This document shows positions 47,675 through 61,166 of a stretch of DNA of 61,166 bases, one piece after another. The notes under the pieces are model-generated. The model was not told the origin of the DNA. It saw only the letters and a program-made list of their open reading frames with translations, and searched no databases. Origin of the DNA: Candidatus Krumholzibacteriota bacterium (lineage in GTDB: Bacteria > Krumholzibacteriota > Krumholzibacteriia > LZORAL124-64-63). The stretch is taken from the NCBI GenBank assembly GCA_024275485.1, contig JAJRZA010000033.1:90487-151652 (forward strand). The letters are read 5' to 3'. Numbering within the stretch: the stretch's first letter is position 1; each line of letters opens with the position of its first letter. The position numbers were made by a program, and so were the translations under genes.

Positions 47675-48610
47675 TTACCAACGCAGGTTCAGGGAAAACT
47701 TGTGCCCAGATTCGAACCCCTCGATTTTTGTATCCTCGTAGGCATAATCAATGCCCAGAACGCCGGCGCGAAAACCAGCCCCTGCTGTCCAGCCCTGCAA
47801 ATCATAATTCACTTTGGTACCACCGCGCAATGAAAGCTCGGAAATGATGCGCAATTCGGCACCCAAATGGGCTTTTTCACTGGTATCGTTGGGAAACACC
47901 ACGTCACCGGTGAAAGTCAGGCGGTCGCCCAACAGGTTTTCCGGACTCCAGGACATACCGATTCGGTAGGCAGAAGGCAAGTCAAAAGGCTCATTCCGCA
48001 AATTCATTTGACCACCGATGTTGGTGGCGGAAGCTGCAAAAACCAAGCCCTCAATCATGCTTTTATGAGTGACAAAGAAGTCAAAGGCAAATCCAGTATC
48101 GGAATAGAGATCAATTTTTTCATAAATCATCTTGGCAGTGACCGCGGCCCCAAAACTGTCTCCTAGTTTTCTGGCATAAGAAATACCAAAACTCACATCA
48201 TAAGGATTGAAAGTACCTTCTGGAACGGCAACCGGCTCGTCTCCGTAGCGGGGAATATCATCGGAATACAGGCCGGTGAACATGAATCCAAAAACACCGG
48301 CGCCGGCCTTGTGGGCCACCGCAGCTGATTCATGATTGAACGACCCAAGATAACGATAGTGTTGCAAAACAAACTCGGTTTCGAAATCGGCAAAGACATT
48401 GTTGGCCGGATTCCAGAAAACAGCCGAAGCACCATGACTGGAAGCTACCCCGGCTCCCCCCATACCGGCCTCCCGGGCCCCAACTCCCATGCGCAGCGAC
48501 AACAGCCCTACTTCTCCAGGATTAGCTGCCAGAGCAATAACCCCATGGAGGGACAATGCCGTTACAAATGCGAAGACCTTCAGTAAGGTGGATTTGGATA
48601 TGCGAACCAT
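47675..48610 (-). CDS. PorV/PorQ family outer-membrane protein
   Basis: The product has 311 residues with a signal peptide (residues 7-29, ending ALAA). The family N-terminus is clear: LRMGVGAREAGMGGAGVASSHGASAVFWNPANN, read over two strands, with the NPA motif, followed by amphipathic barrel strands to the terminal KFSLNLRW (final aromatic). PorV takes part in the type IX secretion system in Bacteroidetes; in related phyla, PorV paralogues accompany exported proteins with FlgD-type C-termini, several of which are encoded in this window. Whether this is a secretion component or a transporter is inference. The ATG is preceded by AAAGGGA. Confidence 0.85.
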   Translation of the reverse strand: MVRISKSTLLKVFAFVTALSLHGVIALAANPGEVGLLSLRMGVGAREAGMGGAGVASSHGASAVFWNPANNVFADFETEFVLQHYRYLGSFNHESAAVAHKAGAGVFGFMFTGLYSDDIPRYGDEPVAVPEGTFNPYDVSFGISYARKLGDSFGAAVTAKMIYEKIDLYSDTGFAFDFFVTHKSMIEGLVFAASATNIGGQMNLRNEPFDLPSAYRIGMSWSPENLLGDRLTFTGDVVFPNDTSEKAHLGAELRIISELSLRGGTKVNYDLQGWTAGAGFRAGVLGIDYAYEDTKIEGFESGHKFSLNLRW

Positions 48611-48726: not shown

Positions 48727-51700
48727 TTATCGCACAATGGCAAAAGGGACCACGCTGTTGTCCACCTGGCCCAGATCGGATTCAGCCACCAGACGACAAA
48801 GATACATTCCCGAGACGGTATTCTCCAAATTGAGAGTAACAGTGAACGGGTCAACCGCCACCACGGACTGCCACTCGCTGAAGGCCACGACTTCGCCTTC
48901 AAGGTTGTGGATCGAAACTTTCACCTTTGAGGCAGATCGGACCCGAGCGCGAACCTGCAGGGGTTCATCCCCCAGGGGGCTGGGATAACAAATATGACTG
49001 CCCGGAACAAGACCTGAGCCATCACTGGCGACCGGAGGCCCGGTCCAGGCACTCATGTCCCAGGAACCATTGCGCCAGGGAGAACCACCCCACATAGGCC
49101 AAAGAGGATCGCTCTGCGCCACGGCAGACCAGATAACAAGAGTGGAAACATCAGTTGTCTCCAACTCACCATCACTATCGTTCAGGCCGGTGATTCGGCC
49201 AAATGTGCCCAGCGCCACCAGATCCAGGGTGGATTCACCCTGCACGGCACCAAGGGCAGGTGTGCCCACGCTGCGAGCCGGCCCGGCAGCGGGCCACCCG
49301 TCAAGACTTTCCCCCTTCATGCCAAACCCAAATATTCGACCATCATAAACGGGAAACACGAATTGTCGAAGTGGCGTCTGGGCACCCACGAGGCGGGCCA
49401 CCAGTGGTCCACCCGCCAGGGAATCCGACGCAATGGCTATGGCTTCAGCAGGCCTGCGGGGCCAACCATCACTCCAGGAACCATTATGTCCCACCCTGCC
49501 CAGCACACCATTGGAAATAAAAGATCCGCCCGGGGCCACCGGAGAAGTCATACGGATATCATCGTTCCAGACCATGGGCAGAGCTTCCTGTACAAGGTCT
49601 TCGGTGAAGAACAAGGTTACCGCCTGGCCATCAACACCGGGAACTATGGCATATCGAACGGAAGTGTCTGTTGCTTCATGGTCCACATATCCTAATTGAA
49701 CGGGAAAATTGCCGGGCCGGAAAGGAAGATCCATACTCACGGTCTGGGGAGAACCAGGAACCTGCGATTCATCCACCGCACAGAATACAAGCTGACTCTC
49801 GTTGCTGAGAGTATCATACACGGCCACAACAACCTGTTGCCAGGCATAAACCGGAGGTGACTCAACACGCACCGCCCCCAGATTGAAATGCAGCCCCATA
49901 GTTGCAGGCAACCCTCTGTAAAGGCGCAGGTGTGACTCACCCATTTCTTGAAAAATGACGGCTGCATCCACCGCTTCGTCAAGAGCATAATCAGCCACCC
50001 GGTCGCGAGGAATCAACACCGGTGGCAGAGAGCAGGATTCCGTCTCAACAACCAGGCCAACATTGCCTGGATTGGCGACCAGGGGATTCCCGTCACTGCC
50101 GAACACGTAAAGTCCACGGGGCCCTGTCAGGATAATCTCCGATTGGATCCCATCGCCGTCCCAGTCGCCCGACGCAGACGGCTGGTTCCAAAGAACCGGA
50201 TTGTTGGCATAGGTACCAACGGCAAATGGCTCCACGGTATCCGGGTCCAGGTCATGATCCAGGAATTCATTCAGATCTCCATCAAAGACAAAGATCTCCC
50301 CTTGCCTACCGGTGACAATAACCTCCGCAGCATCCCCCGCTCCTCCCAGGTCAGTCAACAGGACGTGGCTACCTGCCAGGCTGATTCCAGGAGACAGTTC
50401 CAGCCGGGCATGAATTTCCGGTCCTGCCCCGACACCACCTTGGGTATCGAGCTGGAAGGACATGATATCGGCGTATTCAAAGCCCCAGAGTGTATCGGGA
50501 GGACTGATTGTATCGTTGATGTCGGCCACAAAGGACATTGAATCCAGAACCACCAAGCTGATGTCCTGAAACCGGACGTTGGTCCTGGCTCCGGTGGCAG
50601 ACCGGGTATCAGGCAGGGTTTCAGGCCCAAAAAAGTAATTGTCCTCACCCCGGAAACTGTCGTCATCGCCACCCAGGATAAAAGGGCTGGGCTCACGGGA
50701 ATCCAGATCCTGAATTCCATCAGCCTCTTCCAAATCCACCGATTTGTGTTTGGGGTCGGCGTTGAACCTGTTGGAAGCCATGCCAAAGACATCCTGGATG
50801 ACACCTTCATCGATGTGCCAAATGTAAATTCCGCTGCCCGCACCTTTGACCCCAGGAGCCCGGGCGCTGTTTTCGCTCATGAAAAAATCCCACTCCCCAC
50901 CACCAAGGCGTTCACGGATGTCGGTGGCAGGATCGAATTTGCCAACTCCAAACACTGGAACGCCATCGTCCGTTGGCGAATCATCATCCCAAAAATCGGG
51001 AATGTTGTTGCCATTGAGATCGCCCGGAAAAGAATAAATACGGTTCCCATCAGGGTCCTGGAGTCGGTAGGCAAGTAGCCAATATTCCTGTCCCGTGATT
51101 TCCACACGCAAGGCCGCGTCGGGGCTGCCCGTTTGTTCACTGGGAGTCAGGATTTGCTGACCAGCCACCAGGGGATCAACCACCCGGGGCTCCAGCCATC
51201 CCATCAGCATTTTGTTGAAGGCACAGGGATGAGGCGGGATCCAGCCCATGCCCACAAAGAGGCCATAACCCATCAGGCCGAATTCACCGATGCCCTGACT
51301 GTCGGGAAAGCCGGATGGCGTAAAATCGCTCAGGGAGAGCATTCCCAGTCGCAACCCTACCTCGAAACAATACACACCCAAGCTGCCAAAGTAGCCGCCA
51401 AAACCGCCTATTGGATCCTGATATTCACATTCCGGAAGAATGAGGACCTGGTCAATCCCCGCATCCGGTCCAAAGTCGACACTGGGCAACCAGGGGTTTT
51501 CCAAATCACCATCCTCGAAAGCCTGTTGAAAGTCGCTGGGATCCAGGAAGTTGCTGAAGATCTGTTCAGGAGAATTACCGAGAATATCAGTTTCCTGACC
51601 GGCCCCGGCATGAATAACGATAAAGGTGTCGAAGAGTGAAAAATCAATTTCCCCATCCAGGCTGTCCACCACATCGCTTGCCAGAAGGACGGTCTGCTCA

Positions 51701-52200
51701 CCCTTCTCCGGGTGATTCCCATAGTAACTCATGGGATGAGGCAAATTCACCACCCGGGGATGAATGGTGTAATTAAAAGTGAAATCGCCACCACTGACAT
51801 CATGGAAGTAGTCGGCGACATCCCCAAACAAATGGCTGAAGAAAACCGAATCATGGGCGGAATAATAAATTTCGGACTGCATGGGATCAGGAAACTCGCC
51901 AGGGACCTGGCCAAACCGTCCAAACAAAAGACTATCACTGAAATCACACATCAAAACGATAGCCTGCAGCGCAGCCGGAGCTTTCTCCCCGGACATTCGC
52001 ATTTGTTGCAATCGGACCGCCCCATCGTCTCGAAGGGGGCCACTGTGATGCCCAAGAAGGTTTTGCATTCGCACAGGAAGACACTGTTCGATAATCCCGG
52101 CCAGACTACCGGAATCGGGTTGTGCAGCTACAGTGGCCTGCGGGAACCAGGCAAACCACCCGGATAATAGCAGAGCAAACAAAACGAGGGGACTTCGCAT
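48727..52200 (-). CDS. M6-type protease homologue, exported, zinc site lost
   Basis: The product has 1157 residues: signal peptide (residues 1-26), M6-like domain (about 75-420), a long region of FG-GAP/propeller-like strands, and a FlgD-like C-terminus (KVSIHNLEGEVVAFSEW...MYLCRLVAES). In M6 proteases the zinc motif HExxHxLG lies in this position; here residues 278-287 read CFEVGLRLGM, so both His ligands are replaced while Glu, the G-x-x-L-G frame and the following Asp remain. The product is therefore probably not a zinc protease, though the fold may serve binding. It may be sorted through a PorV/T9SS-like route. The gene starts with ATG at 52200. It is 230 bases from the next unit's terminator. 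Confidence 0.75.
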   Translation of the reverse strand: MRSPLVLFALLLSGWFAWFPQATVAAQPDSGSLAGIIEQCLPVRMQNLLGHHSGPLRDDGAVRLQQMRMSGEKAPAALQAIVLMCDFSDSLLFGRFGQVPGEFPDPMQSEIYYSAHDSVFFSHLFGDVADYFHDVSGGDFTFNYTIHPRVVNLPHPMSYYGNHPEKGEQTVLLASDVVDSLDGEIDFSLFDTFIVIHAGAGQETDILGNSPEQIFSNFLDPSDFQQAFEDGDLENPWLPSVDFGPDAGIDQVLILPECEYQDPIGGFGGYFGSLGVYCFEVGLRLGMLSLSDFTPSGFPDSQGIGEFGLMGYGLFVGMGWIPPHPCAFNKMLMGWLEPRVVDPLVAGQQILTPSEQTGSPDAALRVEITGQEYWLLAYRLQDPDGNRIYSFPGDLNGNNIPDFWDDDSPTDDGVPVFGVGKFDPATDIRERLGGGEWDFFMSENSARAPGVKGAGSGIYIWHIDEGVIQDVFGMASNRFNADPKHKSVDLEEADGIQDLDSREPSPFILGGDDDSFRGEDNYFFGPETLPDTRSATGARTNVRFQDISLVVLDSMSFVADINDTISPPDTLWGFEYADIMSFQLDTQGGVGAGPEIHARLELSPGISLAGSHVLLTDLGGAGDAAEVIVTGRQGEIFVFDGDLNEFLDHDLDPDTVEPFAVGTYANNPVLWNQPSASGDWDGDGIQSEIILTGPRGLYVFGSDGNPLVANPGNVGLVVETESCSLPPVLIPRDRVADYALDEAVDAAVIFQEMGESHLRLYRGLPATMGLHFNLGAVRVESPPVYAWQQVVVAVYDTLSNESQLVFCAVDESQVPGSPQTVSMDLPFRPGNFPVQLGYVDHEATDTSVRYAIVPGVDGQAVTLFFTEDLVQEALPMVWNDDIRMTSPVAPGGSFISNGVLGRVGHNGSWSDGWPRRPAEAIAIASDSLAGGPLVARLVGAQTPLRQFVFPVYDGRIFGFGMKGESLDGWPAAGPARSVGTPALGAVQGESTLDLVALGTFGRITGLNDSDGELETTDVSTLVIWSAVAQSDPLWPMWGGSPWRNGSWDMSAWTGPPVASDGSGLVPGSHICYPSPLGDEPLQVRARVRSASKVKVSIHNLEGEVVAFSEWQSVVAVDPFTVTLNLENTVSGMYLCRLVAESDLGQVDNSVVPFAIVR

Positions 52201-52529: not shown

Positions 52530-53445
52530 TTATCTTCTTCCGGAAGTGCCACCACCCCGACCTGATTTGGAGCTGCCACCCCCTGATCTGCTTCTTCCTG
52601 AATTGCTACTTTTGCGGGAGGAACTACCGGAAGAATTGGTTCCTGAGCTTTTGACGGCACTGCTCTTTGATCTGCTGCCACCGCGGTTGTTGGATTTGGG
52701 TTTCACCTTGGACGAGCTGCCACTTCGGGTCCCGCTCTGCCGAGTATTGCTCCTGGGTTTGACAGCAGCACCTGTAGAACTCCCGCCGCGGGAATTTCTT
52801 CGCGTTTCGACACTCCGGCCGGAATTGCGACTGTTGTTTTGAGATCCAGAACCGCTGTTCCAAATCCTGGTGCCCTTTTTCCGTGGCTCCACCGGCTTGA
52901 TCCGACGGTTCCCATCGGCTCCGGAGGAAGGTTTGACGCTGCCACCACGGGTTGAGCCGGGAAGGCTGCTACCATACACAGTGGTATTTCCTGAATTGGG
53001 CAGCCCTCCGGACCGGCTGACTGGTTGGATGCTTTCCCGATTTGATGTTGGCCGGGTGCGAATTCCATCTCGATCCTGACGAGTCCCAGCACGAGTCCCA
53101 CCCTGGGATCCAGACCCTGACCTGGAACCACGACCCTTGACATTTCTTATTTGCAACCCGCCGCGAGAGGTGCTGCGCTGCGGCTTGTCAATACTGGGCC
53201 GAGGCCGAACCATGGGCTTCTCGCCTCGCACGACCGTTGTGCGGTCCTCCTGTCGAACCGATTGACCGCCGCGCATGCTGCCGGTTCCACCCCTGGTAGC
53301 AGGCTGCTTCTGCCGCATCATTTCCTGTTCCCTGGCAGTTGGGCCGCGTTGGGCAATTTGGCCGGTCACCCGGGCGTAATCGCCTGTCTTGCGTCGGGGG
53401 GGGCGTTGACCATCCCCCAAATTTGGTGGCTGATGTAGCCCCCCG
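52530..53445 (-). pseudogene. out-of-frame basic, Ser/Arg/Gly-rich tail of the CxxCH protein
   Basis: This frame encodes about 285 residues of low-complexity, strongly basic sequence (many SRG, SGS, RGG groups, ending SGRGGGTSGRR). It is in a different frame from the well-formed N-terminal part at 54384. The two frames join if the C8 run (53396-53403 on the plus strand) had one base fewer, or alternatively at the C6 run at 53439-53444. The segment GDYARVTGQIAQRGPTAREQ reads as ordinary protein just after the junction, which supports it as the genuine continuation. As an intact gene, the product would have about 617 residues. The tail is expected to be disordered. Confidence 0.7.
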
Positions 53446-54384
53446 CCCGGTTTTGTAACGAACTCCATAATTCTGGTAATAAGGCGAATCGCACCAAGCA
53501 TAGACCGGGTTTCCCCACACGTAACCAGACCCATAATTGCAGGTGTAGTAGGGCTCGTACCAGAAGTTGATCCATGGCCGCCAGGTCCAGGGATCGATGT
53601 AGACATAGACCGGGTTGTAATAGACGGGATAATACCCATTGTCCCTATACCAGGAGTTCCCCCAGCCGTAGTCGTAGGTGATATCAATGGTGCACTGGTC
53701 ACGGTACGGATGAACGGCCAAGTCATCGTCCATGTGGCACTGGTTGCAAAGGAAGCGAGGGTGTTCCACCACTTCGTTTACATAATAACTCAGGTAATTG
53801 GTTATCACGAAATCGCCCGAATCTTCCATTCCGGTGATGGCAAAATTAACCTCGTTCATGGCTAAAAATGGATCACCGATGATGGCAAATTCAATCTTCT
53901 CGGCCTGGAACTCATGGTGGAAATCCACTGCCAGATCACGCAGATCGAAGGGATAACGCGAAACAATAGCTTCTACGAAGCCCTCACCTGCACTGCTGGA
54001 GGCTGCCAGGCGACGGGCCCCAGTCACTGGCATCAAGTATTCATGGCCACCAAAAACGAACCCATCATCCAGGCGACTGCGGGGCCAAAGAACCGTAACC
54101 AGGCCTTCGGTGTTGATGCGGTAAACCACGGCGTAGGCGTCTTCATTGGTTTGGAAGCCCACAGCCATGTCTTGGCCACGATCAAGAACAACGCCTTCTT
54201 CAAGGCCATCAATCCAGACCCCAACACGCAAGGTTTGCGATGAGTAATCAAATTCGGTTTCAGCAACTGTGGTCTGGCCAGTGGCAAAAGCCAACGAACA
54301 CAACATGAAGGTCAGGGTGAAGATGCCGGTCAGAACCATTTTCTGCTGGCGACCTTGGAGTTTGTTTGCATTCCGTATTTTCAT
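53188..54384 (-). CDS. exported DUF4384-like protein with CxxCH motif, frameshifted
   Basis: The first about 325 residues are well formed: a signal peptide (about residues 16-36, ending LAFATG), then a beta domain resembling DUF4384 (RVGVWIDGLEEGVVLDRGQDMAVGF; AYAVVYRINTEGLVTVLWP), then a CNQCH motif at residues 213-217, and a Tyr/Trp/Gly-rich stretch (about 238-310, GYYPVYYNPVYVYIDPWTW). CxxCH could attach a c-type haem or, with nearby Cys, bind zinc. Beyond residue about 325 the frame reads atypically (RPNCPTRPNCQGTGNDAAEAAC) and stops at 53188; the better frame is the basic tail at 52530-53445. ATG 54384 has AAAGGAG upstream and lies 30 bases after the lipoprotein stop. Confidence 0.75.
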   Translation of the reverse strand: MKIRNANKLQGRQQKMVLTGIFTLTFMLCSLAFATGQTTVAETEFDYSSQTLRVGVWIDGLEEGVVLDRGQDMAVGFQTNEDAYAVVYRINTEGLVTVLWPRSRLDDGFVFGGHEYLMPVTGARRLAASSSAGEGFVEAIVSRYPFDLRDLAVDFHHEFQAEKIEFAIIGDPFLAMNEVNFAITGMEDSGDFVITNYLSYYVNEVVEHPRFLCNQCHMDDDLAVHPYRDQCTIDITYDYGWGNSWYRDNGYYPVYYNPVYVYIDPWTWRPWINFWYEPYYTCNYGSGYVWGNPVYAWCDSPYYQNYGVRYKTGRGATSATKFGGWSTPPPTQDRRLRPGDRPNCPTRPNCQGTGNDAAEAACYQGWNRQHARRSIGSTGGPHNGRARREAHGSASAQY

Positions 54385-54414: not shown

Positions 54415-55056
54415 CTAAAGACTGATGATTTCGGGGGTGCTGTCGGGGCGGCCATCATTTTCGGGTACTGACAATTCGGGCAAGCCTGAAATTGTTTGAT
54501 AGGCCCAGATGATCTCGACAAAATCGGATCCCATTGTGACCACTCCGAATTTGGCGTAGTGGGTACCGTAGGGATAATCATCGAGCTCCACTACGTAGAT
54601 ATGGCCTGCAATCAACTCAAGCACTCCGGTGATGGAATAGCCATCGGCAGGAGCCCAGGAAACACCTTCAAATATAAGATAGCCATCATTGTCGGTGAAT
54701 ACGCCGAAATCCTGAAGGAAAACCCCACCCCGTGCAGTATGGACATAAGGAACGCCACCCTGGAAATGGATTTCAATGTCGGCGTTGAAATTGGGCTGTC
54801 CCTGATCGCGGCCAAAATCCATTTCGCTGAAGTCAAATGCAGACCAAAGAGGCTGGGTGCTGATATTGTAAAGTCGCACAGGTGCCAGACTGTGGGGCAA
54901 GGGTGCGTCGATGACAAATTCATAACTGAGAGCACTTTCACGACCGGCGGAATTCACTGCCGCCACAGCGTACTCGTATCGTTCACCATTGACCGCTTCG
55001 ATATCTGCAAACCAGTGCAGGCCACTGATGGGGTCGAAATTGCCATTCCAGGCAAC
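54415..55056 (-). pseudogene. second part of FN3 lipoprotein, after in-frame TAA
   Basis: Immediately after TAA 55057-55059 the same frame continues VAWNGNFDPISGLHWFADIE and then VNGERYEYAVAAVNSAGRES, the second half of an FN3 domain begun upstream. It then runs through ALSYEFVIDAPLP, YNISTQPLWSAFDF and FGVVTMGSDFVEIIWAYQT to TAG at 54415. As read, no natural start lies before it (the ATG/GTG near 54966 is internal to the FN3 fold). The rest is a beta domain of unknown function. One base change to TAA (for example from GAA, AAA or CAA) explains the break. Confidence 0.75.
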
Positions 55057-55398
55057 TTAACCAATGAAGGAAAATTGACGGTTGTTGTTGTACTCATCGC
55101 CTTCTTCATAAAATCGGCTGTAGATCAAATAGCTGGCGACGTTATCGTTGAAGTTGCCGTCGTAGGGGTGGTAGGAGATGTCATACCATTGCACGATGAT
55201 TTCGTTGTCGCCACTTATGCTGTGAACGCCGGTGGGAACAACCGGCGGGGGAAGTTCAATGCAATTGACACAATCTTCTGTTTCGCAGCCACCAATCAGC
55301 ATCAACGATACAAAAACAAGCCCAAGCAATCCCATTCGCCCAATGATGCGGTGGGTTTTTGGAGTTTCAAAAAACTGCTGTGCATTGAACTTGTTCAT
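55057..55398 (-). CDS. FN3-domain lipoprotein, prematurely stopped
   Basis: As it reads, the product has 113 residues. A signal (GLLGLVFVSLMLIGG) with lipobox LIGGC is followed by a Cys pair (CETEDCVNC) and the first strands of an FN3 domain (PTGVHSISGDNEIIVQWYDI...YLIYSRFYEEGDEYNNN). It stops at TAA inside that domain; the remainder is in frame directly downstream (54415-55056), giving about 327 residues when intact. ATG 55398 has GGAGGTGGAG upstream. A near-consensus sigma-54 promoter lies 50 bases upstream, so the unit (this gene plus the CxxCH gene) is probably controlled by sigma-54 activators. Confidence 0.8.
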   Translation of the reverse strand: MNKFNAQQFFETPKTHRIIGRMGLLGLVFVSLMLIGGCETEDCVNCIELPPPVVPTGVHSISGDNEIIVQWYDISYHPYDGNFNDNVASYLIYSRFYEEGDEYNNNRQFSFIG

Positions 55399-55447
55399 AT
55401 CTCCACCTCCGGGATCGTCGGGGACCTGGTCCTACAACCTGGTACAG

Positions 55448-55462
55448 GCAGGAGACGTGCCA
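55448..55462 (-). promoter_or_regulatory. sigma-54 (-24/-12) promoter
   Basis: On the minus strand TGGCACG (55456-55462) is followed by TGC (55448-55450), with the GG and GC dinucleotides exactly 12 bases apart, as required for sigma-54. The -24 box is a perfect consensus; the -12 box is CTGC instead of TTGC. Transcription would begin near 55436, 38 bases before the lipoprotein ATG. Confidence 0.7.
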
Positions 55463-55736
55463 ACCCGGGATTTGTGAAATTCGAAAGGACAATCCATGAA
55501 GAATGATTTGAGAAGTATTTAGCAAATAAGAAATATACGACCATAAACTGTTTAAAACTTTTTACTTAACTCCTGGCGTCAAGAAATACAGAGACTGAAA
55601 AACAAAAGCATTGATGTCCTGCAATTGGGATGCCCGAGTTTCTGCAACAGGATTAATGATGTGCGCAATGTGGGACATGTTCCCCGAAAGGGGACAAAAA
55701 TTTGCTGGTGGTTAGGGAAGTTGTCAGAAAAACAAG
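55463..55736. other. intergenic region, upstream of the sigma-54 promoter
   Basis: No gene is seen. On the plus strand a GTTCCCC-GAAA-GGGGAC dyad (around 55679-55694) is followed by AAAAATTTGC. This could be a poor sigma-54 site on the plus strand or an activator-binding dyad for the promoter at 55448. Confidence 0.35.
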
Positions 55737-55799
55737 AAGAGCCCCGCCTTTCGGCAATCTGATTAAAAATCTCGCCTTTTTATAATCAGAAGGGCTCTT
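55737..55799. ncRNA. structured element with three helices, strand uncertain
   Basis: An 8-bp outer stem (55737-55744 with 55792-55799) encloses a short GCC-TTTC-GGC hairpin and a 7-bp stem (55759-55765 with 55783-55789), giving a three-way junction. T-rich runs follow on either strand (TTTTGTT on plus, TTCTTGTTTTT on minus), so it could be a bidirectional terminator or the 3' part of a small RNA. Confidence 0.4.
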
Positions 55800-56230
55800 T
55801 TGTTAGGATCCGGTGATCAGATCCTGAAGTTTTCTCGAAGATTTCTGTAAGAAACCTGGATTTCCTGGAGAAGAATCGTGAACCGGAAGGGTGAACTCCA
55901 GTTCTCTCTCGCCAGCCAGGAATGATTGTTAAGACCCCACCTCTTGACAATCATCCTGCCAGCACAACTTGTTGAGAACTTCCTCTTGGCCGGTAAGCTT
56001 TGAGGAAAGAACCTCAACACCTCCCGAGTTCACGATATTCATTCTTCTTTCAAAGAGGTTCCCTGTAATGTCACCCCTTCATCAGATGATACAGCATGGA
56101 CCATACCAAAAAACCGAGCCTGAGAAGTCACGACATCTCCATATAATACAACAAGTTAAGTTGGTGCCGCATCAAAGGTGAGTAAATGGAAAACACAAAA
56201 CTATCAAATTGTTTTATAGCTATGGTAAAT
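55800..56230. other. intergenic region without recognised gene
   Basis: About 430 bases with lower coding character and many stops in all frames. Only short, non-credible frames occur. Nothing else was recognised. Confidence 0.4.
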
Positions 56231-56325: not shown

Positions 56326-59300
56326 CTAATTCTGAACAATTCCGTAATGGCGGATCTTTTTCAGAAGGTTAGGATAGCTGATCTTCAGGGAGCGGGCTGC
56401 CTGGCTTTTGTTCCCGCCCGAAGCTTGCATCGCCCTGCTGATTTCCCTGCACTCGATGATGGCCAAGGTATCGCGCAGTGGAACAACCTGGTCGGACTTC
56501 GCACAGACATCAACCGATTCCCGCATGGTTTGGGGCAAATATTCAGGCCTCAATACTCCGTCATCATGGGCCAGAACAATGGCTCTTTTCAGGGTTTTTT
56601 CCAACTCTCGAACATTTCCTGGCCAAGGATAACGAGTCAAGATATCCATGAACTGGTGGTCAATGGCCAACAATCCAGTTCCGATTTCCAGGGAAAACCG
56701 TTGCACAAAATGACGAGTCAGCAACTGGACATCATCCACCCTTTCCCGCAACGGGGGAATTACCAGAGGGAAATCGAGCAAGCGATAAAAAAGATCTTCC
56801 AGGAAACGTCCTTCCTGGGCCGCCAAATGAAGATCGGTTTTGGATGCGGCGACCAAACGAACGTCCACCAAAATCTCCCTGGTCCCACCCACTGGGCGGA
56901 TCACCCTGGAGTCAAGGAACTGGAGAATTTTACCCTGCATGTTCAAAGGCATCTTGCCGATTTCATCCAAAAAAACTGTCCCGCCTTCGGCGGACTGGAG
57001 CAAACCTTTTTTATCGGTATCAGCCCCGGTGAAAGCACCTTTGACGTGACCAAAAAGTTCGCTTTCCATAAGAGCATCAGGAATGGCTGCACAATTGATG
57101 GGCAGGAATCGTTGATCAGAGCGGCGGCTGAGCGCATGAATTGAATAGGCCAAAAGACCTTTCCCGGTTCCGGTTTCACCATTGAGAAGAACAGTTAAAT
57201 CACTGGGAGCAACTTTTTGTGCCACTCTCAGGACTTCCAGCATGCGGTCACTCTGGGTGATAATATTCTCAAAGCTCTCCACCCTTTGGATGGGTGTGGC
57301 CAGCTCCAGACTTCCGGAACCCCTGCTTTTTTCGGACATGAAAAGGGCCAGGAACCCCATATAGGTAGTGAGAAAATCGATAGCGTTGCGGGCAAACCCC
57401 ACACTCTTATCACCCTGTGGATTTTTACCCAGAAAGAGCATTCCGAAATGCTGGCTGTCCAGGGCAATGGGCATAAAAACACAGGTGGAGGCCACCGAAG
57501 CCAAGGCCGGTACATCCTGAATCAGGCGGTCATTGCTGCCGAGACGAGAGAAAAAGCTGGTTCCTGAGTTGGGTTCTTCAGACAACCGGCGGTTAAACCA
57601 CTGCATAAGTTGTTGGGCCAGATTTTCCGTCAAACCAGATCGCGAAATAATCCGAAGAAAGTCGGTGGCCACCGAGGAATCAACCATGGCAATAAAGCCG
57701 CTGTCCGCCTCCACTCTCTCCATGGCCGCTGCAAGAACTGATTCCAGATTTCTGGGAACAGAAGAATCATTTGAGACAAAAAGGCCAGGAATACTGGAAA
57801 TAGCCAGGAGATGACTGTCGGCCGAATCCACGCCTCCAACCAGACCCACTTCAATTCGGTCGCGCAGTGCAACCACGGAGTGATCCAATTCGGGATTTTC
57901 CAGCCCGGCAGCGTGTCGTTCCAACTCAAATACCGAAAGCAGGGCATCGTCAAATTGAGTCAACTGGATTTGCACCCTGGCAAGAGATTCCAGAATGCGA
58001 CAAAGCATGATGTCGCTAACACTGCTGGCACCCCGTTCCTGGGCATCCATCAGATATCGACGAAGCAACAGAAGATCGGCTTCTGAGGCATCTTCACGGC
58101 GTTTGGAGGTGAATTCCAGAATACTGGAACACCATTGGCGCAAAAGTCTTTGGTCCCGGAAGACGGAAATGGCTTCCTGGAAATGATGGGTCAATTGCTG
58201 CTGGTCATTAAGACCAGCATAAGATTTTCCGAGAACCAAATGGCAGAATCCCAATTCGTAAATTTCACCACATTGCTCACAAACGGAAATGGCGGCCTGG
58301 CAGACAGCAATGGCATCCTGGAATTTACCCGATGCCAGGTGGGCTTCACCGATGCGTCGAAGCAGCTCACCTTCAAGGTCATTGCCCGAGGCAATAGAGC
58401 GGCTCTTCTCCAGCCCAAGCTCATAATTGAACATGGCTTTTTCGAATTGTCCGCGGCCTTGAAGCAAATCACCAAGATATTCATCAGCAATTATTTCTTC
58501 ACGCAGATAATGGTTTTGTTCTGCCAGGATTTTACCATCCAGAAGCAGCTCTTCGGCCCTGGCCAGACGTCCGGACAAAAACTCCAAACGGCCGAGGGCA
58601 AGGTTGAGCCGGCACAGGTTCAGACGATCACCGAGGCTGCTGGCAAACTTGCGACCTCTCTCAAGCAATGGTTTCGCTTCACCCAAGCGGTTGCTTTTGG
58701 ACAGGACAATACCCTGATTCAGGAAAAAACCAGGCAAGAGATGGCTGGCTCCAATTTGATTGGCCAGGTTGGTGGCCTTCCCCATGAGGGACAAAGCCGC
58801 TTCCCATTGGCAATTGTTTTTCTTCAAGAGGGCCAGGTTGTTCAAAATGTTGGCCACCCCTAGATCAAAACCGATCCGGCGGTAGGTAGCCAAACTGTCA
58901 TTGTAGAACTCTTCCGCTTTTTCCAGACGGCCCAAACGATGTTGCGCGATTCCCATGATAGCCTGCAACCGGGCGACTTCTTTGTGTTCATCAGTCAAAG
59001 CCAGCACTGCAAAAGCCATTTTCGCCAAGCGTAGGCATTCATGCAATTGTGATGTTTCACGCAAGAAGAAAGCCTGTCGCACCTGGAAACGGGCACGAAC
59101 AACAGCCAAATCCGGGGCCTCAAGATTACCAAGCCCCAAATTGAGAATATCTTCGGCGCGATTCAACAGGGCTTCAGCGCCATTCAGGTCTCCCTGCAAG
59201 ATCATGCAATCGATTGATTTTCGCAGGACTCCCAAGCCATCCAACAAGGGCATCTCCGAGAATGCCCGTGTGGAATATACCTGATGGTAATAATCCAGGG

Positions 59301-59436
59301 CACTGGTAAAACTGGAGGCATGAAAGTGGAGATCTCCAATTTCCTCCAACCGTACCCAGTTGATGGTTCGGGCACCACCAACATCAGGAAGTAGTTTGGG
59401 ATCATTGTCCCGGGGTTTTTCAAAGTGTTCTCTCAT
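56326..59436 (-). CDS. TPR-GAF sigma-54-dependent transcriptional activator
   Basis: The product has 1036 residues: TPR-like helical repeats (about 30-440; e.g. FTSALDYYHQVYSTRAF, ARLQAIMGIAQHRLGRLEKAEEFYNDS over repeats), a GAF-like domain (about 560-690, LESVLAAAMERVEADSGFIAMVD), a sigma-54-interacting AAA+ domain (about 700-930) with Walker A GETGTGKG near 752 and the GAFTGAD loop, and a Fis-type helix-turn-helix at the C-terminus (NKSQAARSLKISYPNLLKKI). No receiver domain is present, so it is probably controlled by ligand or protein binding to TPR/GAF rather than by phosphorylation. ATG 59436 has AAGGGA upstream; the longer frame starts with TTG. It is the obvious candidate activator of the sigma-54 promoter at 55448. 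Confidence 0.92.
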   Translation of the reverse strand: MREHFEKPRDNDPKLLPDVGGARTINWVRLEEIGDLHFHASSFTSALDYYHQVYSTRAFSEMPLLDGLGVLRKSIDCMILQGDLNGAEALLNRAEDILNLGLGNLEAPDLAVVRARFQVRQAFFLRETSQLHECLRLAKMAFAVLALTDEHKEVARLQAIMGIAQHRLGRLEKAEEFYNDSLATYRRIGFDLGVANILNNLALLKKNNCQWEAALSLMGKATNLANQIGASHLLPGFFLNQGIVLSKSNRLGEAKPLLERGRKFASSLGDRLNLCRLNLALGRLEFLSGRLARAEELLLDGKILAEQNHYLREEIIADEYLGDLLQGRGQFEKAMFNYELGLEKSRSIASGNDLEGELLRRIGEAHLASGKFQDAIAVCQAAISVCEQCGEIYELGFCHLVLGKSYAGLNDQQQLTHHFQEAISVFRDQRLLRQWCSSILEFTSKRREDASEADLLLLRRYLMDAQERGASSVSDIMLCRILESLARVQIQLTQFDDALLSVFELERHAAGLENPELDHSVVALRDRIEVGLVGGVDSADSHLLAISSIPGLFVSNDSSVPRNLESVLAAAMERVEADSGFIAMVDSSVATDFLRIISRSGLTENLAQQLMQWFNRRLSEEPNSGTSFFSRLGSNDRLIQDVPALASVASTCVFMPIALDSQHFGMLFLGKNPQGDKSVGFARNAIDFLTTYMGFLALFMSEKSRGSGSLELATPIQRVESFENIITQSDRMLEVLRVAQKVAPSDLTVLLNGETGTGKGLLAYSIHALSRRSDQRFLPINCAAIPDALMESELFGHVKGAFTGADTDKKGLLQSAEGGTVFLDEIGKMPLNMQGKILQFLDSRVIRPVGGTREILVDVRLVAASKTDLHLAAQEGRFLEDLFYRLLDFPLVIPPLRERVDDVQLLTRHFVQRFSLEIGTGLLAIDHQFMDILTRYPWPGNVRELEKTLKRAIVLAHDDGVLRPEYLPQTMRESVDVCAKSDQVVPLRDTLAIIECREISRAMQASGGNKSQAARSLKISYPNLLKKIRHYGIVQN

Positions 59437-59515
59437 CAACCGTATCCCTTGGCGAGTTGTGGAATCGGTAATCAAATCATGAATTATTGATCAGTGGCAG
59501 TACCACATGTTCTCA

Positions 59516-59836
59516 TCAAGGTGCAGGAATCAACTGTGCCAAAACCCATTCCAGGAGATCTTCGAAGGTGAGATCACCTAATTCAACGTCACCATCAAAA
59601 CCACCGTAGACACCTTGTCCCCAAAAGCCAAATCCATCACCAGCTGAATCAGGATCACCATCATTGAGACCGTCGTTCTGTTCGAAAATGAGGCCATCGC
59701 CACTTTCATCGTTGTCTGGCGGTGTCAATTCCGGTTGCCCATCGCTGGTGGCCCAAGCATGACCGGGAGCAATGCTGCCGAAGGCCAACATCCCCACCAG
59801 TAGAACCAAGGACAGAATCATCGTGGATTTTTTCAT
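59516..59836 (-). CDS. small acidic secreted protein, unknown function
   Basis: The product has 106 residues with a signal peptide (MKKSTMILSLVLLVGMLAFG, cleavage after GHAWA). The mature part is short (about 77 residues) and rich in Asp and Gly (DNDESGDGLIFEQNDGLND; GDPDSAGDGFGFW), ending in a hydrophobic helix-like segment (LTFEDLLEWVLAQLIPAP). I recognise no family. The ATG has GAGGAG upstream. It lies between two sigma-54 activator genes, and a sigma-54-like site lies about 45 bases upstream. Such a compact acidic exported peptide could bind Ca2+, signal, or be a secreted regulator; that is speculation. Confidence 0.75.
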   Translation of the reverse strand: MKKSTMILSLVLLVGMLAFGSIAPGHAWATSDGQPELTPPDNDESGDGLIFEQNDGLNDGDPDSAGDGFGFWGQGVYGGFDGDVELGDLTFEDLLEWVLAQLIPAP

Positions 59837-59956: not shown

Positions 59957-61166
59957 TCAAACGACCTCTGGCTGGGTGCGCAAACCGTATTTGCTAATCT
60001 TCTTATACAAGTTGCTGCGCTGCATACCCAAGGCCTCGGCAGTCTTTGATACATTATACCTGTTTTCCACAAGTTTTTGTTGAAGAAAAGTCCCCTCGCT
60101 CTTGGCCTTGAATTCCTGAAAGTCCCTGCAGTCCAGAAAAAATGCCTCCTGGCCGGTTTCACTGCCAGTACCGGGAAGAACGGGCAAATCGGCTACTTTC
60201 ACAACCGGCCCGGTAGCCAGTATGAGTAATCGTTCAACCAAGTTACGTAATTCCCGAACATTCCCGGGCCAGCTGTATTCATTCAGAATGGCCAGGGTTT
60301 CCTGGGAGAAGCTGAGCGGCGACTTGTTCATACACTTGGCCATGTCTGCCATGAACCAGGAAAGCAGCAATTCAACGTCCCCTTCCCTCTCTCGCAAGGG
60401 AGGCAAGTGGACTGACAGTACATTCAACCTAAAGAACAAGTCCTGGCGAAAACCACTGTCAGAAGAAGAAAGGTCACGATTGGAGGCGGCGATAATGCGC
60501 ACATCTACCTCACGGGTTTCCCTTCCGCCTACCCTCTGGAAACGATTTTCTTCCACCGCCTTGAGAACCTTCGCCTGGGCTTCTTGGCCCATATCGCCAA
60601 TCTCATCCAGAAAAAGGATTCCTCCGTCGGCGTGTTCAAATTTTCCGATCCGCTGCCGATCAGCCCCTGTAAAACTGCCTTTTTCATGCCCAAAAAGTTC
60701 ACTCTCAACCAGGTCCCGGGGAATGGCTGCGCAATTGACTTCCACCAGGGCATTGTTGGAACGTGGGCTGGCCCTGTGAATGGCGTTGACTACAAGTTCC
60801 TTGCCAGTCCCATTTTCTCCGGTTATCAAAACCGTGCTATCGGTGGGGCCGACCTTCTCAATAAACTGCCGCACCTCCTGGATTGCCTGACTGTCACCCA
60901 CCAATGGAGCGCCGACTCCCGCCTTTGACCTTAATATTTCACGGTCGTTCAACACCGTCTGGTGCCGGAGGCAGTTGGCGAGCGTTACCAACAGGCGGGA
61001 TCGATCAAGGGGTTTTTCCAGGTAATCGTAGGCACCACCCTTAACTGCTTCCACCGCCGTTTCGATGGTTCCATGTCCGGATATAACAATGACCGGTGCC
61101 GCGACCTTGAATTTCTTAAGCTGCTCCAGAACTTCGAATCCGTCCATGCCCGGCATTTTGATATCC
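59957..61166 (-). CDS. NtrC-family response regulator, 5' end outside window
   Basis: This is the C-terminal 402 or so residues of a sigma-54 activator controlled by phosphorylation. The receiver domain is cut by the window end; the reading begins at DIKMPGMDGF, where the first Asp (61163-61165) is the expected phosphorylation site, and continues with VISGHGTIETAVEAVKGGAYDYLEKP. The AAA+ domain has Walker A GENGTGKE and the sigma-54 contact loop as GSFTGAD. A Fis-type helix-turn-helix ends the protein (YNVSKTAEALGMQRSNLYKKI). The GAFTGA Ala is Ser, a natural variant. No histidine kinase is visible inside the window. It is followed by the small secreted-protein gene after 120 bases. Confidence 0.95.
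   Translation of the reverse strand, partial: DIKMPGMDGFEVLEQLKKFKVAAPVIVISGHGTIETAVEAVKGGAYDYLEKPLDRSRLLVTLANCLRHQTVLNDREILRSKAGVGAPLVGDSQAIQEVRQFIEKVGPTDSTVLITGENGTGKELVVNAIHRASPRSNNALVEVNCAAIPRDLVESELFGHEKGSFTGADRQRIGKFEHADGGILFLDEIGDMGQEAQAKVLKAVEENRFQRVGGRETREVDVRIIAASNRDLSSSDSGFRQDLFFRLNVLSVHLPPLREREGDVELLLSWFMADMAKCMNKSPLSFSQETLAILNEYSWPGNVRELRNLVERLLILATGPVVKVADLPVLPGTGSETGQEAFFLDCRDFQEFKAKSEGTFLQQKLVENRYNVSKTAEALGMQRSNLYKKISKYGLRTQPEVV

Follow-up and report, generated by a model that had tools for sequence, protein, structure and literature searches.

The window, a stretch of 61,166 nucleotides, comes from a genome of the lineage Candidatus Krumholzibacteriia and carries, one after the other on its minus strand, two genes for sigma-54 activators, a noncoding stretch, and the genes for a lipoprotein, a DUF4384 protein and an M6-like secreted protein. 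The features are given in the direction in which the minus strand is read:

59957..61165, minus strand: NtrC-type response regulator, cut by the contig end (Pfam Response_reg, Sigma54_activat, HTH_8)
56326..59475, minus strand: TPR / GAF-like / AAA+ sigma-54 activator (bEBP) with GAFTGA motif and Fis-type HTH; putative activator of P1 and P2
56238..56262, minus strand: distal dyad, TAACCCATTG-N5-CAATGGGTTA; candidate enhancer site
56134..56158, minus strand: proximal dyad, left arm TAACTTGTTG; candidate enhancer site, its position conserved across the phylum
56093..56109, minus strand: P1, sigma-54 -24/-12 site TTGGTATGGTCCATGCT, conserved in family f1 and other families; predicted start near 56082
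55728..56083, minus strand: structured noncoding RNA of ~355 nt, recognised by fold, covariation and covariance-model matches
55728..55801, minus strand: intrinsic terminator domain of this RNA, AAAAGAGCCC...GGGCTCTT with a T-rich tail, enclosing the GGCGAGA hairpin
55448..55463, minus strand: P2, sigma-54 -24/-12 site TTGGCACGTCTCCTGC; predicted start near 55436
54415..55398, minus strand: lipoprotein gene with lipobox LIGGC and FN3-like N-terminal domain; in-frame TAA at 55059-55057
52530..54384, minus strand: DUF4384 protein with CxxCH motif (Pfam PF14326); frameshifted near 53444
48727..52200, minus strand: M6-like secreted protein, metalloprotease-like and apparently inactivated; a conserved downstream neighbour whose membership of the operon is uncertain

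The order NtrC-type regulator, TPR activator, RNA, lipoprotein, DUF4384/CxxCH protein and M6-like protein is that of family f1, and comparison shows this synteny to be conserved. Both activators had been named in the initial annotation, which was made from the sequence of the window without database searches. The NtrC-type regulator is borne out by its Pfam domains; in the TPR activator the domains Sigma54_activat, HTH_8 and TPR are recognised together with the GAFTGA motif, and the GAF part that had been proposed is indicated indirectly only, through the NifA model. Between the two activator genes lies a gene for a small secreted protein of 106 aa (window 59516-59836); only the closest relatives have kept it.

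The lipoprotein and CxxCH genes were taken as one unit in the initial annotation; as a correction to it, both are read as broken in the source genome, the lipoprotein gene by the in-frame stop codon and the DUF4384 gene by one extra G (+1 frameshift) in a run of G. Outside these lesions the two frames stay open, so that recent decay and an assembly error are both possible. In the closest relative the lipoprotein is intact, with a length of 327 aa as in L046, and has a conserved lipobox cysteine; the structural model of the L046 orthologue has a pLDDT of 79.7, and the Foldseek matches are FN3 domains with low TM-scores. The DUF4384 protein, about 620 aa and likewise intact in the closest relative, carries the sequence RYLCxQCH, which is invariant in relatives; relatives of the gene are present in 54 of the 58 genomes tested, and the structural model of the protein is of low quality from residue ~205 onwards. 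The M6-like protein matches the models NF052323 / TIGR03296 ('T9SS-dependent M6-like inactivated metalloprotease') below cut-off, and its HExxH motif seems to be lost. Its gene is adjoined by one for a PorV-like outer-membrane protein (window 47675-48610), which suggests a type IX-like secretion context.

The sigma-54 site before the lipoprotein gene

The site P2, which the initial annotation had proposed as a sigma-54 promoter of the lipoprotein gene, is read on the minus strand as TTGGCACGTCTCCTGCC at 55463-55447, with TGGCACG beginning at 55462 and the GC ending at 55448. The spacing GG-N10-GC is canonical, the flanks resemble TGGCAC-N5-TTGC as in sigma-54 promoters, and the distance to the gene is appropriate, the ATG at 55398 following after 49 nt and being preceded by the Shine-Dalgarno sequence GGAGGTGGAG. 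P2 is the sole exact match to TGGCACG-N5-TGC within the window. Throughout the genome, 14 exact matches were obtained as compared to 6 with the reversed control; thus, the excess is a modest one, and the motif by itself is weak evidence. Several of the other exact matches are intragenic, and the few that lie directly 5' of a gene are P2 and those before the genes for a FliA/WhiG-type sigma factor, a PleD-like response regulator and a chemotaxis receptor.

That P2 is a chance -24/-12 match, and that a sigma-70-type promoter serves the lipoprotein gene, would agree with an excess of the bare motif of only about twofold over the reversed control and with the intragenic matches elsewhere. This reading, which we regard as scarcely credible, is contradicted by the positional conservation of the site in all informative family f1 genomes and in other families. 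P2 is found 5' of the orthologous lipoprotein gene in 28/28 informative family f1 genomes, a count that leaves out four loci ending before the promoter, and in 6/6 genomes of other families (four of f5, two of f2). A P2-like site just 5' of the lipoprotein gene is similarly present in all 14 of the f3, f6, f7 and f8 loci in which that gene was found. The spacing from P2 to the lipoprotein start, as measured in family f1 and f5 loci, is 45-75 nt, and a Shine-Dalgarno sequence is present in relatives. In the loci around the DUF4384 gene the -24/-12 pattern is nearly always a single strong match, and its position is constant. Across aligned family f1 loci the P2 core holds 1.83 bits per column, as compared to 0.15 in the upstream and 0.22 in the downstream flank, a conservation which is partly by construction, since the alignments of P1 and P2 were anchored on the motif itself; the constant location ahead of the start codon owes nothing to this anchoring. 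It is therefore because of positional conservation, in family f1 and in the phylum, rather than because of the motif count that we accept P2 as real, and on this comparative evidence it can be regarded as confirmed as a genuine sigma-54 -24/-12 site that is conserved phylum-wide. Here and below, phylum-wide refers to the genomes sampled, among which the class appears to make up the whole phylum.

The gene for sigma-54 itself, rpoN, named in the initial annotation as a check on its proposal, is present in the source genome (contig C15:31640-32119), in 46/46 high-quality genomes of the class and in 76 of 78 genomes overall. The source genome makes conventional use of the sigma-54 motif. One canonical sigma-54 site (L002 1501-1515) lies 53 bp before the gene for the FliA/WhiG-type sigma factor, which points to a sigma-54 flagellar cascade.

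A second sigma-54 site and a structured RNA

Between the activator gene and the operon, a second sigma-54 promoter and a structured RNA are located, both of which the initial annotation missed. The promoter site, P1, is positioned ~640 bp upstream of P2 and just past the gene for the TPR activator, and comparison shows it, like P2, to be a conserved -24/-12 site: a P1-like site is found 200-360 bp past the activator stop codon in 21 of the 22 loci from families f2, f3, f4, f6, f7 and f8. One f3 locus (L137) has neither a P1-like nor a P2-like site.

The stretch that follows P1 is noncoding and strongly conserved, and it is predicted to fold into a 5' hairpin, a multibranch domain with the apical loop GGUGGGG, and a 3' three-way-junction terminator with the GGCGAGA hairpin. 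Its fold has a z-score of -4.25 in the window and of -6.5 and -5.5 in relatives. In an alignment of 19 family f1 RNAs made from sequence only, compensatory changes occur in 40 of the 46 base pairs, and the covariation score of 0.476 stands against 0.248 +/- 0.013 for shuffled alignments, none of 500 reaching the observed value, and against 0.10-0.18 when the helices were slid. Open frames of 60-150 codons are present in this stretch in some relatives, as would be expected if it coded for a small protein instead of an RNA; as the indels do not come in threes, no frame is common to the relatives and the base-pair covariation is overwhelming, we consider a coding function extremely improbable.

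When family f1 RNAs alone were used to build a covariance model, it recovered the RNA from 33 of 38 f1 and three of four f5 genomes, with one weak match in f3. By this model the RNA occurs once per genome, save for one weak extra match, and it lies upstream of the DUF4384 gene wherever a contig carries both. The RNAs of families f2, f3, f4, f6, f7 and f8 vary in length and in their stems but keep the loop; a loop containing GUGGGG is present in every family examined, generally as GGTGGGG and in f2 and f4 as GTGGGG at the DNA level.

Searches against Rfam gave only chance matches for the RNA, and none for the seven loci of other families that were scanned. Several known types of RNA were considered and rejected. 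The RNA is without a match to 6S RNA (RF00013), whose gene occupies another site in 12 of 13 genomes (C28:151302-151480 in the source genome). A sponge for CsrA of the CsrB/RsmZ type was dismissed as GGA is not enriched and is mostly below the level of shuffled sequences; csrA was not found in some of the genomes whose locus carries the RNA, for example G036, G043 and G044. Titration of Hfq as by CrcZ, or pairing that depends on Hfq, was discarded because Hfq was found in none of 23 genomes, and an antisense action on the lipoprotein leader because pairing of the conserved loops has a mean z of about 0.

The position of the structure, directly upstream of the operon and on the same strand, also allows it to be read as a long cis-acting leader or attenuator which gates readthrough from P1 into the lipoprotein operon, P2 then being an internal promoter. 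The terminator is located between the structure and the gene, RNA and operon are linked, and in the RNAalifold consensus a 5' AGGG element pairs with an arm of the terminator, all of which speaks for such a leader. However, readthrough is unnecessary with a separate conserved P2 after the terminator, ~270 nt of poorly conserved sequence separate the terminator from P2, and a 5' element able to compete with the terminator is not seen in f5. We therefore regard a cis-acting leader as unlikely and favour a separate RNA that would end at the terminator.

Families f3 and f7 are predicted to have a second structured RNA, ~100 nt long, about 250-345 bp past P1 (loci L139, L145, L146, L140, L152, L142, L138, L141, L134 and L135). 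It has its own sigma-70-like promoter (TTGAC...) and the near-invariant segments GGAATGGCGAGAT and ATGGACATCCCCTCCGGTGCT; its compensatory changes exceed those of shuffled alignments, and no Rfam match was obtained among the loci scanned. A kissing interaction between the loops of the first and the second RNA in f3 scored no better than shuffled sequences.

The activator, its candidate sites and the proposed module

An orthologue or close homologue of the TPR activator is present in 73 of the 78 genomes of the class. Just downstream of its gene and upstream of P1, comparison shows twin dyads with the consensus TAACYYGTTG-N5-CAACRRGTTA, which is perfect in the relative L047. In the window, the proximal dyad, perfect in L047, has an intact left and a degenerate right arm, and the distal dyad forms a perfect hairpin with six T behind it, and may at the same time serve to terminate transcription of the activator gene. 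Relative to the -24 element, the dyads start near -50 and -153 in f1, near -59 and -173 in f3, f6 and f7, and near -48 and -150 in f4. Their positions accordingly move by ~10 and ~20 bp between families, which corresponds to about one and two helical turns, and shifts by whole turns are the pattern expected of protein-binding sites. The best dyad upstream of P1 has a mean p of 0.009 against dinucleotide shuffles. Weaker dyads upstream of P2 cluster near -107 and -94; those of the window are weak, the best score (p 0.67) being not significant.

Two activators are encoded side by side, and the NtrC-type regulator next door could act in place of the TPR protein. If it activated P1 and P2, the module would be an ordinary two-component output. 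The regulator is itself a sigma-54 activator and is conserved beside the module in families f1 and f5, where its orthologue lies 5' of the TPR activator gene. Yet it is the TPR activator gene that is found immediately upstream of P1 also in f3, f4, f6, f7 and f8, the dyads sit in the 3' flank of this gene, and in an f2 genome (L075) the NtrC gene is several kb further away, so that control by the NtrC-type regulator appears quite improbable.

We infer that the locus is probably a self-contained sigma-54 module in which the TPR activator drives both P1, and with it the RNA, and P2, and with it the lipoprotein/CxxCH-DUF4384 operon. The TPR-type enhancer-binding protein would sense a signal via its TPR/GAF-like half and bind to the twin dyads just 3' of its own gene. 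From there, it might loop to RNA polymerase-sigma54 and fire the two promoters, P1 giving rise to a discrete, terminated and highly structured noncoding RNA and P2 to the lipoprotein/CxxCH-DUF4384 mRNA. The RNA would act in trans in an envelope response, the likeliest routes being post-transcriptional control or a protein partner. The reading of the initial annotation is supported in part: a sigma-54 promoter of the operon with a dedicated activator beside it is well supported by strict synteny, candidate dyads and rpoN, but the locus is phylum-wide and not a trait specific to one lineage. A wider regulon of the TPR activator was not found in the source genome among the other TGGCACG-N5-TGC sites and dyad-like matches; none of the dyad-like matches examined there outside the locus is near a good sigma-54 site.

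Relation to known systems and significance

Qrr RNAs are short antisense RNAs that depend on Hfq, whereas the RNA of the Krumholzibacteria is large and strongly structured and comes from genomes in which no Hfq was found. In Vibrio, with LuxO, the Qrr RNAs are regulatory RNAs that require sigma-54 and are under the control of enhancer-binding proteins (PMC10162802). Of similar arrangement is the Pxr sRNA of Myxococcus xanthus, which has several stem-loops, is located directly 3' of the sigma-54 activator gene nla19 and is apparently transcribed by sigma-54 (PMC5568312). As in the locus described here, an sRNA with an apparent sigma-54 promoter lies directly downstream of a sigma-54 activator gene. 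Pxr, however, has 108 nt and three stem-loops and is followed by an NADH dehydrogenase gene, while the RNA of the Krumholzibacteria, with about 300-355 nt, is multibranched and followed by a sigma-54 lipoprotein operon; the two RNAs are compared by description only. Unlike that of the Pxr/nla19 system, the Krumholzibacteria activator has TPR repeats and no receiver. Similarly, CrcZ of Pseudomonas and Azotobacter (CrcZ/CrcY) is an RpoN-dependent sRNA under CbrA/CbrB, and a cbrB-crcZ co-transcript shows that the genes adjoin (PMC6292655). This again places an RpoN-dependent RNA beside an activator gene, but CrcZ sequesters Hfq/Crc via A-rich sites, and no Hfq was found in 23 genomes of the Krumholzibacteria. 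A broad link of sigma-54 promoters and activators to lipoproteins and to the exterior of the cell has been described (PMC3162934); it is a general trend, and the abstract names neither the RNA nor the operon of the Krumholzibacteria. In the literature searched, no paper was found that brings Krumholzibacteria together with either sigma-54 or noncoding RNA.

The placing of a sigma-54 RNA after an activator gene is already known from Pxr/nla19 and CrcZ/cbrB. What is new is the RNA family, together with the second promoter that couples it to an envelope operon and the phylum-wide conservation of the RNA in genomes in which no Hfq was found. More tentatively, and with a chance that we place not quite at even, it might be hypothesized that the RNAs form a phylum-wide class of large, Hfq-independent and sigma-54-gated structured RNAs that use their conserved GUGGGG-containing loop and GGCGAGA hairpins to bind a dedicated partner, protein or RNA, one activator switching on RNA and envelope operon together. 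Experiments can be aimed directly at the conserved loops and dyads, and an uncultured phylum gains a concrete, testable proposal for a circuit in which an activator, two sigma-54 promoters, a single RNA and an envelope operon stand in conserved order. A large structured sigma-54 RNA in genomes without detectable Hfq would widen the known range of sigma-54-dependent RNAs.
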